The notes beneath the pieces are model-generated. The model ran no database searches. It was not told the DNA's origin and saw nothing but the letters and a program-made list of their open reading frames with translations. Positions 2,681-35,350 of a stretch of DNA of 64,000 nucleotides are shown one piece after another. Source of the DNA: Hymenobacter oligotrophus (lineage in GTDB: Bacteria; Bacteroidota; Bacteroidia; Cytophagales; Hymenobacteraceae). The stretch covers positions 3,720,001 to 3,784,000 of the forward strand of contig NZ_CP032317.1 in NCBI RefSeq assembly GCF_003574965.1, in the 5' to 3' direction. The position numbers and the translations under genes are program-made. The first letter of the stretch is position 1; each line of letters opens with the position of its first letter.

Positions 2681-2813
2681 AGAACCCTGCGCGCAACCCG
2701 TAAGGCCACTCGCAAAGCCGAGTCAGAATCAGGGAAAATAGCCCGTTGCGGCAACTTCGGGCCGAAATCGATTCATTCTCCGCCCGTCCTCCGCAGGCGC
2801 CGAACACTAGAGT

Positions 2814-3013
2814 TGCACGGGCAGGTCTCCTGACTTGCTTCGGCGCCGGGCGGCCTTCCCATTCCTCCAGCCTAGGTGGCTTTCGCAGGAACAGTGGCGA
2901 AGAGAGGCTCGGCGCAGGGTACGGTGAAGCTCACAGTTGCGGGGACAGTCGCCGAATCTCACGGCATTCCCTTTTCAGCCTCGCCCCACAATCGGGGTTT
3001 GGCCACCCATGCA
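2814..3013 (-). promoter_or_regulatory. Cobalamin (B12) riboswitch
   Basis: Read on the minus strand, this leader has the hallmarks of the cobalamin riboswitch in order: an outer P1 stem (3006-3013 with 2814-2821), the GGGAATGCCGTGAGAT segment, the CCCCGCAACTGTGA segment, GCCACTG, a GGGAAGGCCG element, and the B12 box AGTCAGGAGACCTGCC near the 3' end. It starts about five bases after a TATCTTTG promoter element and precedes btuB by 169 bases. Known members reduce expression of B12 uptake genes when adenosylcobalamin is bound. Confidence 0.95.
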
Positions 3014-3017
3014 CCAG

Positions 3018-3025
3018 CAAAGATA
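3018..3025 (-). promoter_or_regulatory. -7 promoter element for the btuB riboswitch transcript
   Basis: TATCTTTG on the minus strand matches the Bacteroidota -7 consensus TAnnTTTG. It ends five bases before the first riboswitch stem, so the transcript would start at that stem. I see no good -33 TTTG at the usual distance. Confidence 0.6.
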
Positions 3026-29700: not shown

Positions 29701-30611
29701 ACGCTGTGCCGGAAGAGGTGAACCTGTTCAAGGACCTTATTCTGGAGAACTGGACTGCCGACGAGAAGACCAACGCGATGGTAGCTGAGCTGGTGAAGAA
29801 TTACACCAAGCGCCGCAACATCGTAACGGCCCGCTTCAAGCGCGACCGGTTTACCCTGGAGGTAGGCGACGAGCTTCCGGCTGGTATCGTGCAGCTGGCT
29901 AAAGTGTACATCGCCAAGAAGCGCAAGCTGAAGGTGGGTGACAAGATGGCCGGTCGTCACGGTAACAAAGGTGTAGTAGCCCGCATCGTGCGCGATGAGG
30001 ACATGCCTTTCTTGCCCGACGGCACCCCGATGGACATCGTGCTCAACCCCCTAGGTGTACCGAGCCGTATGAACATTGGTCAGATCTACGAGACGGTACT
30101 GGGCTGGGCCGGCCTGAAGCTGGGCCGCAAGTACTCGACGCCGATCTTCGACGGTGCTACGGAAGACGAGGTAGCACATGAGCTGACGGAAGCCGGCTTG
30201 CCGGACTGGGGCCGTGCTTACCTGCACGATGGTCTGACGGGTGACCGTTTCGACCAGCCCGTAACGGTAGGCGTAATTTACATGCTGAAGCTCGGTCACC
30301 TTGTCGACGACAAGATGCACGCCCGTTCGATCGGTCCGTACTCGCTCATTACGCAGCAGCCGCTGGGTGGCAAGGCGCAGTTCGGTGGTCAGCGCTTCGG
30401 TGAGATGGAAGTGTGGGCTCTGGAGGCCTTCGGCGCTTCGAACATCCTGCAGGAAATCCTGACGGTGAAGTCGGACGACGTGATTGGCCGTGCCAAAGCC
30501 TACGAAGCCATTGTAAAAGGCGACGTACTGCCCAAGCCGAATATTCCGGAATCATTCAACGTACTCATTCACGAGCTGCGTGGTCTGGCCCTGGAAATCA
30601 CGCTGGACTAA
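26727..30611 (+). CDS. rpoB: DNA-directed RNA polymerase subunit beta
   Basis: 1,294 residues. The start is TTG at 26727: the family N-terminus ([25 protein letters not shown]) begins right there and the next in-frame Met lies far downstream. Characteristic parts include the rifampicin-region segment [25 protein letters not shown] with [45 protein letters not shown], and the C-terminal [49 protein letters not shown]. The rifampicin region appears wild type. Preceded by structured spacer elements and followed by a 395-base spacer before rpoC. Confidence 0.98.
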
Positions 30612-31006
30612 TTTAAAAAGCTGCTAACAAAATGGTTGTCGGTGCCTCGGTGCCGGCAACCATTTTGCGCATCCTGCCCTAGGTCGACTCGGCAGTTGAT
30701 AAAGGCAGGAGCCTAGCCAGCGAAGACGGAGTACGAGCGGTTTCGCGATATGCTTTTCGGCGGTTGTTCCGAGATATGGTCAGGACAACATCAACAGGCC
30801 GAAAAGTCATCAACAAGCTGGTCGAGTGGAGCCGACGAGGCTCCGACCCAAACCCGATAAAATCTACTGCGCGGCGTACCTATCCGACCCGCAGAGCACT
30901 TTTACGTGAGTCGAGCTGTTGTGAGATTCTGTGGTGAAGTCGTTGGACTAAGCCCGGAGCCTCAGGGCAGTAAACAGCAACAAGCTAAAGCTTAAACACA
31001 AGCAAC
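30612..31006 (+). ncRNA. 395-base structured spacer between rpoB and rpoC
   Basis: No plausible gene, but at least four hairpins in a row: 30628-30638 with 30657-30667 (11 bp), 30672-30678 with 30704-30710 (7 bp), 30753-30761 with 30798-30806 (9 bp, with a second stem inside), and 30828-30833 with 30839-30844 (6 bp, extended outward by GGTC/GACC). None has a T run and I see no TAnnTTTG promoter. rpoB and rpoC are usually much closer together. It could be a cis-acting RNA or a processed small RNA. I do not recognise a known family. Confidence 0.5.
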
Positions 31007-34000
31007 ATGGCGTTTGCAAAAACGAAAAAGCTGGTTCAAGACTTCTCGAAAGTTACCATCTCGCTCGCCTCTCCCGAAGCTATTCTGGAGCGCTCGAACG
31101 GGGAAGTGGTGAAACCCGAGACGATCAACTACCGCACGTACAAGCCCGAAATGGGCGGCTTGTTCTGCGAGCGGATCTTCGGACCGGTAAAAGACTGGGA
31201 GTGCCACTGCGGCAAATACAAGCGCATTCGCTACAAGGGCATTATCTGCGACCGTTGCGGCGTGGAGGTGACCGAGAAGAAAGTGCGCCGCGAGCGGATG
31301 GGCCACATCGAACTGGTGGTACCCGTTGCGCACATCTGGTACTTCAAGTCGCTGCCCAACAAAATTGGTTATCTGCTGGGCCTGCCCACCAAGAAGCTCG
31401 ACCAGATCATCTACTACGAGCGTTACGTGGTAGTGCAGCCGGGCTTGCTGGAAACGGAAGGCGTACAGCAACTCGACTTCCTGACGGAGGACGAATACCT
31501 GGACATCATCGACAAGCTCCCGCGCGAGAACCAGATGCTGCCCAACGAGGATCCGCAGAAGTTCATCGCCAAGATGGGCGCCGACGCGCTGTACATGCTG
31601 CTCGAGCGTCTGAACCTGGACGAGCTGAGCTACTCACTGCGTGACTCCGCCGCTCACGAGACTTCACAGCAGCGTAAGGCTGAGGCCTTGAAGCGTCTGC
31701 GTGTAGTAGAAGCGTTCCGCGAAGCCAACGGCCGCATCGAAAACCGCCCCGAGTGGATGGTAATTCGTATGGTGCCGGTGATTCCGCCGGAGCTGCGCCC
31801 GCTCGTGCCCCTGGACGGTGGCCGTTTTGCTACCTCCGACTTGAACGACCTGTACCGTCGCGTTATCATCCGCAACAACCGCCTTAAGCGCCTGATCGAG
31901 ATCAAGGCTCCGGAGGTGATTCTGCGTAACGAGAAGCGCATGCTGCAAGAGGCTGTCGACTCGCTGTTCGACAACTCGCGTAAGGTAAATGCCGTGCGCG
32001 CCGAAGGCAACCGCGCCCTGAAGTCGCTGTCCGATATGCTGAAAGGCAAGCAGGGCCGCTTCCGTCAGAACCTGCTCGGTAAGCGCGTCGACTACTCGGG
32101 CCGTTCTGTTATCGTGGTAGGCCCCGAGCTGAAGCTGCACGAGTGCGGTCTGCCGAAGAACATGGCAGCCGAGCTGTTCAAGCCGTTCATCATTCGCAAG
32201 CTCATCGAGCGCGGCATCGTGAAGACGGTGAAGTCGGCTAAGAAGATCGTAGACCGCAAGGACGCTGTGGTATGGGACATCCTCGAGAACGTTCTCAAGG
32301 GCCACCCGGTGCTGCTGAACCGTGCTCCTACGCTTCACCGCCTAGGTATCCAGGCGTTCCAGCCGCGTCTCATCGAGGGCAAGGCTATTCAGCTGCACCC
32401 GCTGGTGTGTACCGCCTTCAACGCCGACTTTGACGGTGACCAGATGGCTGTGCACGTACCCCTAGGTCCGGCCGCTGTACTGGAAGCCTCGATGCTGATG
32501 CTGGCGTCGCATAACATCCTGAACCCGGCCAACGGCGCGCCCATCGCGGTACCGTCGCAGGACATGGTTCTGGGTTTGTACTACGTTACCAAAGGCAAGC
32601 GCACCACCGAAGAGGAAGTAGTTGTGGGCGAAGGCCGCACGTTCTACTCGGCTGAGGAGGTGGTAATTGCCATCAACGAAGGCCAGCTTTCGAAGCACGC
32701 CTACATTAAGGTGCGTACGAAGGTGCGCGACGAAGAAGACAATCTCGTGACGAAAGTTATCGAGACGGTTGCTGGTCGTGTGCTGTTCAACCTGCACGTA
32801 CCCGAGGAAGTAGGCTTCGTAGATGAGCTGCTGACCAAGAAGAAGCTGCAGCAGATCATCTCGATGGTGTTCAAGCGTACGGGCATGGCCCGCACGGCGC
32901 AGTTCCTCGACGACATCAAGACGCTGGGCTTCCAGTCGGCTTACAAAGGTGGTCTGTCGATGGGCCTAGGTGATATCCAGATTCCGGTAGAGAAGGACCA
33001 ACTGATTGCCCAGGCGCAGGCCGACGTGCAGGCAGTTACCCAGAACTACCAGATGGGTCTGATCACCGACAACGAGCGTTACAACCAGGTTATCGACATC
33101 TGGACGCGCATCAACAACCAGATCACCGAGACGCTGATGTCGCGCCTCGAGAAGGAGAAGCAAGGCTTCAACTCGATCTACATGATGATGCACTCGGGTG
33201 CTCGTGGTTCGCGCGAACAGATCCGTCAGCTCGGCGGTATGCGTGGTCTGATGGCCAAGCCCCAGAAGTCGCTGCAAGGTTCGGTTGGCGAGATTATCGA
33301 AAACCCGATTCTGTCTAACTTCAAAGAAGGCCTGGACGTAATCGAGTACTTTATCTCGACGCACGGTGCCCGTAAGGGTCTGGCTGACACCGCTCTGAAG
33401 ACGGCTGACGCCGGCTACCTGACTCGTCGTCTGGTTGACGTATCGCAAGACGTTATCGTGAACGACGTTGACTGCGGCACGCTGCGTGGTATCGAAACCT
33501 TTGCTCTGAAGGACAACGAGGATATCGTGGAGCCGCTGGCCGAGCGTATCCTAGGTCGCGTAGCCGTTCACGACATCGTGGACCCGCTGACCGACGAGGT
33601 TATCCTGACTGCTGGCGACGAAATCACCGAAGAGGTTACCCGTCGTATCGACCAGACCAGCATCGAATCGGTGGAAATCCGTTCCGTACTGACCTGCGAA
33701 GCCAAGCGTGGTATTTGCGCCCGTTGCTACGGCCGTAACCTCTCGACTGGCCGCATGGTGCAGAAGGGCGAGGCCGTAGGTGTAATTGCTGCTCAGTCGA
33801 TCGGTGAGCCTGGCACCCAGCTGACGCTGCGTACCTTCCACGTGGGTGGTACCGCCTCGAACATTGCGGTAGAAGCCAGCATCCGGGCCAAATTTGCCGG
33901 TGTAATTGAGTTCGAAGACGTGCGCACCGTTGATTCGGTGAATGCAGAAGGCGAACCGGTGAAAGTGGTGATGGGTCGCTCGGGCGAAGTACGTATCGTG

Positions 34001-35350
34001 GAGAAAGGCACCGGCAAGGTGTTTATCTCGAACCACGTACCGTACGGCTCGTTCCTGCTTGTCGAAGAAGGTCAGGAGGTTGAAAAGGGCCAAGAACTCA
34101 ACAACTGGGACCCCTACAACGCTGTAATTCTGGCCGAATTCGATGGTGCCGTCAACTACGAGGGTATCAAAGAAGGCGTAACCTACCGTGAGGAGTCGGA
34201 CGAACAGACCGGCTACCGTGAGAAAGTGGTTATCGAGTCGAAAGACAAGACCCTAGCTCCGGCGCTGGTTATCAAGGCCGGTAAGAAAGGCGGCGACGAG
34301 TCGCAGAAGGCTTACAACATCCCCGTAGGCTCGCACATCAACGTGGAGAACGGCGAGAAGATCAAGGCTGGTCACATTCTGGCTAAGATCCCGCGCGCCG
34401 TTGGCAAGACCCGCGACATTACCGGTGGTCTGCCCCGCGTTACCGAACTCTTCGAAGCCCGTAACCCGTCGAACCCGGCGGTGGTATCGGAAATCGACGG
34501 TGTGGTAACCTACGGTACGGTGAAGCGTGGTAACCGCGAAATCTTCGTCGAGTCGAAAGACGGCGTACGCAAGAAGTACATGGTGCCGCTGTCGAAGCAC
34601 ATTCTGGTGCAAGACAACGACTTCATCCGTGCCGGTGCGCCGCTGTCGGATGGTGCCATCACGCCGACGGATATCTTGAACATTCAGGGTCCCGGCGCCG
34701 TGCAAGAGTACCTCGTGAACGAGATTCAGGAAGTATACCGCTTGCAGGGTGTGAAAATCAACGACAAGCACATCGAGGTGGTAGTACGCCAGATGATGCA
34801 GAAGGTGGTTATCATGGATCCGGGCGACACGTCGTTCCTCGAGCACCAGACCGTGGACAAGATCACGTTCATGGAAGAAAACGATGCCATCATCGACATG
34901 AAGGTGGTAACGGACGAGGGTGACTCGACGATTCTGAAGCGCGGTCAGATCGTGACGGCTCGTAAGCTGCGCGACGAGAACTCCTCGCTGCGCCGCCGCG
35001 ACCTGAAGCTGGTAGAAGTGCGCGACGCTTCGCCGGCCGTATCGCGCCCCACGCTGCAAGGCATCACGCAGGCCTCGCTGGGCACACAGTCGTTTATTTC
35101 GGCTGCTTCGTTCCAGGAAACGACCAAGGTGCTGTCGGAAGCTGCCATCCGTGGCAAGGCAGACGAACTTCTAGGTCTGAAGGAGAACGTAATCGTTGGT
35201 CACCTCATTCCGGCCGGTACCGGTTTGCGCGAGTACACGCGCATTCAGGTTGGCTCGACGGAGGATCCGGAGCCGGTTGCTGCCGCTCCGGCCGCCAGCG
35301 AAGCAAAGCCTCGCGCAAGCCGTAGCAAGCGCGAAGTATCGGCCGAGTAA
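31007..35350 (+). CDS. rpoC: DNA-directed RNA polymerase subunit beta'
   Basis: 1,447 residues. Near the N-terminus is the zinc ribbon (Cys66-x-Cys68 ... CDRCG). The catalytic loop NADFDGDQM (residues 472-480) holds Mg2+ with Asp474, Asp476 and Asp478. Other hallmarks are [42 protein letters not shown], the second zinc site ([16 protein letters not shown]) and the trigger-loop region [18 protein letters not shown]. The C-terminal tail is Ala/Pro-rich. A clear terminator follows 18 bases after the stop. Confidence 0.98.

Follow-up and report, generated by a model that had tools for sequence, protein, structure and literature searches.

The DNA analyzed here (the window) is a stretch of 64,000 nt from Hymenobacter oligotrophus that contains rpoB and rpoC in the forward orientation. 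We found that the last base of rpoB is 30611 and the first of rpoC is 31007. This leaves a gene-free spacer of exactly 395 nt, as the initial annotation had stated. The RNA from this region is predicted to be highly structured. The fold of 30590-31020 had an energy of -165.1 kcal/mol compared to -134.5 ± 5.1 kcal/mol for shuffled sequences (z -6.0), and none of 100 shuffles was as low. The initial annotation had also described at least four perfect stems and listed four. All four are present, but not all are perfect (the arms of the first are 93% complementary), and those at 30672-30710 and 30828-30844 vary between genera. That is, the spacer was described correctly and its content was understated: the most conserved part, consisting of two further hairpins (P2 and P3) and a pairing between two loops, had been missed. 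Together with hairpin P1, these form a conserved RNA domain that spans about 30751-30978. The features of the locus are:

30612-31006, + strand: rpoB-rpoC intercistronic spacer (open reading frame ends and starts; aligned homologous spacers)
30628-30667, + strand: T1, a strong hairpin immediately 3' of rpoB (fold; spacers of relatives)
30751-30920, + strand: conserved RNA domain, the core (single copy in the genome; covariance model R1, E 2.3e-26)
30754-30805, + strand: P1 hairpin (covariation and alignment-free swap test), with outer stem 30754-30761/30798-30805, inner stem 30763-30769/30783-30789 and loop 30770-30782 (13 nt)
30773-30780, + strand: P1-loop strand of the kissing helix, GAUA(U)GGU, partner of 30878-30884 (covariation)
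30851-30912, + strand: P2, a long irregular hairpin (covariation and swap test), with helices AC/GU (30852-30853/30910-30911), CG(A)UAAAA/UUUUACG (30855-30862/30900-30906), CUGCG/CGCAG (30867-30871/30890-30894) and GGCG/CGAC (30873-30876/30885-30888)
30878-30884, + strand: P2 apical-loop strand of the kissing helix, ACCUAUC (covariation)
30896-30903, + strand: invariant GCACUUUU in P2
30915-30978, + strand: P3, a hairpin that follows the core and precedes the rpoC start, with closing helix GCUGUU/AACAGC (fold; weaker covariation)
30979-31006, + strand: mostly unpaired A/C-rich stretch ahead of the rpoC ATG, without a Shine-Dalgarno sequence (sequence and fold)
31007-35350, + strand: rpoC (1447 aa), the presumed regulated gene

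We found that the core is restricted to one lineage and to one locus. A DNA search of the order indicated that the spacer is conserved in the genus of the window (Solirubrum/Hymenobacter) and conserved in parts in a second genus of the same family (Hymenobacter). Using covariance model R1, we found the core in 117 of 204 genomes of the family, exactly one copy in each and always between rpoB and rpoC. These included all eight genomes searched from the genus of the window and 109 from the Hymenobacter genus; the core was absent from the other four genera among the 204 genomes. Among 395 genomes sampled across the phylum Bacteroidota, the model matched only members of this family. When 84,980 species were scanned with a sequence pattern, the 74 contigs that matched all bore the name Hymenobacter or Solirubrum; viral contigs, phages and plasmids yielded no match to the element. 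Complete spacers without the core occur in at least seven Hymenobacter genomes, indicating that it is dispensable.

Two blocks are conserved in the aligned spacers, CCGAGAYA(n)GGUCAG and CUACUGCGCGGCGUACCURUCCGACCCGCAGAGCACUUUU...GUCGAACUGUU. In members, the P2 loop is UACCURUC and P3 is closed by CUGUU/AACAG. The ACCURUC of the P2 loop has a 7-bp complement in the P1 loop, GAYA(n)GGU. In 99 distinct aligned sequences, standard pairs made up 93.7% of pair cells, compared to 35-44% in controls in which partners were slid by 1-3 columns (preserving relatedness). The kissing helix was 99.9% paired, and 18 of the 33 pairs had changes on both sides. We also compared the arms of each helix without an alignment, by combining arms of one species with those of another (ignoring relatedness). 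Own arms were favored for the P1 inner stem, the P1 outer stem and P2, with none of 200 permutations as good; covariation of P3 was weak. Thus, the initial annotation's proposal of a new RNA element with conserved pairing is supported by tests with and without alignment.

The loop-loop contact behaved in the same way. Among 107 distinct cores, matched P1 and P2 loops paired better than swapped loops, and the single freely varying kissing pair was U-A in 80, C-G in 25, U-G in two and C-A in none. When placed on the tree of the rpoB and rpoC flanks, this pair switched eight times on the best tree, only twice on well-supported branches. Some copies with a switched pair (L013 and L258) carry the same inserted gene, so recombination may account for some of the switches, and we do not claim eight independent events. 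These two copies, from different subclades, have a homologous insert encoding a 193-aa protein, near-identical P1 hairpins and the C-G kissing pair. The sequences suggest that the inserted gene, P1 and the P2 loop may have been transferred as one block.

The RNA has the same sense as the rpoBC mRNA (+ strand). Read on that strand, there were 229 G-U cells and only 39 A-C cells, which identifies the sense of the RNA. The element is also under purifying selection: P2 identity between genera was 0.877, compared to 0.681 at third codon positions of rpoC. Compensatory changes in excess of controls and a defined RNA sense are the marks of a structured RNA class.

We compared the distances from the 107 distinct cores to the flanking genes. 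In 106, rpoC was on the same strand, 61-104 nt downstream. The element lies consistently ahead of one gene and in one orientation, as expected of an rpoC leader. For the one exception (L141), the available sequence ends before rpoC, and the inserted gene and spacing are the same as in L015. In contrast, rpoB was 84-1572 nt upstream, the larger distances being due to genes inserted between T1 and P1. About a dozen spacers contain such extra genes, always at this place and with P1-P2-P3-rpoC intact. With the distance to rpoC nearly fixed and that to rpoB variable, the element travels with rpoC. The conserved size anticipated by the initial annotation held only roughly: most core-bearing spacers are 274-417 nt, but those with inserted genes reach 1748 nt.

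The rpoB-rpoC spacer of Hymenobacter is a hotspot for insertion of small genes (L011, L013, L015, L071, L118, L121, L133, L134, L139, L258 and L259). Inserts include DUF4160 with DUF2442, XisH with XisI, DUF433 with DUF5615, DUF4145, a membrane protein of ~69 aa, and proteins of 143 and 193 aa without a Pfam match. Several resemble toxin-antitoxin or defense-type pairs.

The T1 hairpin is older than the core. The mean 80-nt minimum free energy of the T1 region was -35.6, compared to -19.4 for shuffled sequences. The rpoB-rpoC spacers of relatives in other genera are 25-170 nt. Those of other members of the family are 81-154 nt, and most of these have a strong hairpin after rpoB; such hairpins are common in the family even in spacers of ~80-120 nt (L029-L043). 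Since T1 is also in relatives without the core, the core was added in the Hymenobacter/Solirubrum lineage. It is possible that T1-type hairpins are partial terminators or processing sites. Two Hymenobacter genomes without the core (L030 and L253) have kept the AACAGCU-rich tail before rpoC that is found in core-bearing relatives, suggesting that they lost the core. Others without the core (L248-L251) have a spacer that resembles those of other genera. Any count of gains and losses is tentative, as the flank tree is weakly supported.

We searched for relatives of the element among known RNAs. Using Rfam models at gathering and lax thresholds, a check proposed by the initial annotation, we obtained only chance matches to miRNAs, far below the gathering threshold, both for the spacer of the window (E ≤ 5) and for eight divergent members from other genomes (E ≤ 1). 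The Rfam search of the window also revealed a cobalamin riboswitch at 2803-3025 (- strand) of the window (95.8 bits). Models for 6S RNA (RF00013 and RF01685) matched nowhere in the genome, and the same models also miss the Bacteroides control; the core is unlike the single bulged hairpin of 6S RNA. Housekeeping RNase P and tmRNA are not in the spacer, since both genes were located elsewhere in the genome. We also rejected a group I intron, a ribozyme, a put-like RNA and an attC site, all raised from sequence resemblance and all lacking model matches or defining motifs. The papers we searched contained nothing on the element. We found no sigma-70-like promoter or terminator in the window's spacer and no terminator-type expression platform in the window. 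The Bacteroidota-type promoter TTG-N17-23-TANNTTTG was found in 0 of 93 homologous spacers (0.9 expected), in keeping with the absence of a promoter originally noted. We conclude that the element is a new, lineage-restricted class of structured RNA, belonging to a general kind that is already known.

A cis-acting function is favored by the constant link to rpoC, the RNA sense, the docked fold and the site just before the start codon. We lean toward the notion that the element is a structured RNA of the rpoC leader that probably tunes rpoC expression. The core would be transcribed as part of the rpoB-rpoC mRNA; we infer transcription from upstream with rpoB because no promoter was found in the spacer. 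P1 and P2 would dock through the 7-bp loop-loop contact into a compact domain that, through P3, would reach nearly to the rpoC start. The docked state would most likely set the efficiency of rpoC expression from the shared mRNA, either at translation initiation in the adjoining start region or through local mRNA decay. The structure might be fixed, or it might respond to a protein or ligand, with RNA polymerase itself as a natural candidate. Our comparisons establish the fold, its strand, its one conserved locus, the constant spacing to rpoC and purifying selection; an action on rpoC, its direction and its effector are what we infer from them.

It is also possible, if rather unlikely, that the element is an insulator or processing element that sets the rpoC mRNA apart from rpoB and the inserted genes through cleavage and differential stability, without sensing anything. 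The ancestral T1 and the position of the inserts, all between T1 and an unbroken P1-P2-P3-rpoC, are consistent with this. However, T1 alone would suffice for such a function, and relatives get by with it; a 7-bp kissing contact with invariant flanking bases exceeds the needs of a barrier or cleavage site.

Somewhat less probable is the processed small RNA proposed in the initial annotation, in which the core is cut from the rpoBC mRNA and acts in trans. The 170-nt conserved domain has a compact, stable fold, and the strong T1 hairpin upstream is a potential RNase cut site. But all copies of the core found in 117 genomes are at rpoB-rpoC, it has no promoter or terminator of its own that we could find, and the conserved P1 and P2 loops are already occupied with each other. 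The small RNA went unsupported; a spacing that is constant toward rpoC but variable toward rpoB argues instead for the cis-acting rpoC leader.

We consider it quite improbable that the element acts in the nascent RNA to modify RNA polymerase (antitermination or anti-pausing) for passage into rpoC. The put RNA of phage HK022 likewise has two hairpins in the nascent transcript and is tied to RNA polymerase, working through the beta' zinc-binding domain (PMC9378689), and the core lies in an RNA polymerase operon. However, put is a phage antiterminator of ~70 nt for which loop-loop pairing is not described (PMC9378689). We found no similarity in sequence or in Rfam between the two and do not claim membership. 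Further, the core is downstream of T1, the only terminator-like hairpin, and there is no terminator between the element and rpoC.

Although small genes are often inserted in the spacer, it is very hard to credit that the core is what is left of a mobile element or of a protein-coding gene, a reading refuted by the covariation unless a multi-copy homologue turns up: the core is single copy at one locus, viral, phage and plasmid sequences gave no match to it, and no reading frame is conserved open across members.

The rpoC leader proposed here has likenesses to known systems. In the purine riboswitch, loops L2 and L3 kiss, and there too two paired hairpin loops hold a compact domain. Unlike that riboswitch, the core has no three-way junction, no known ligand and no match to the Rfam models, and its hairpins are joined by a variable linker. 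The L10 leader of rplJL-rpoBC is an autoregulatory leader RNA in a ribosomal and RNA polymerase operon. Like RNAs of that type, the core is a structured RNA in the rif operon beside a machinery gene, and its expected role would be to match subunit synthesis. It differs in being before rpoC, in its fold, in having no Rfam match and no known bound protein, and in its restriction to Hymenobacter and Solirubrum.

In E. coli, rpoBC is on record as being under autogenous control (PMC10931766). It is conceivable, though we regard this as speculative, that the leader senses polymerase itself: RNA polymerase (or free beta') would bind the docked P1-P2 of its own mRNA and shut down rpoC, giving an RNA feedback on polymerase subunits specific to the Hymenobacter lineage. 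Feedback control of RNA polymerase subunit synthesis is already known in bacteria; neither Rfam nor the papers searched contained a conserved RNA structure located between rpoB and rpoC. The element, 170 nt with a 7-bp contact, is found in more than 100 species and is absent from a few close relatives, and thus allows a test of control of rpoC separate from that of rpoB.
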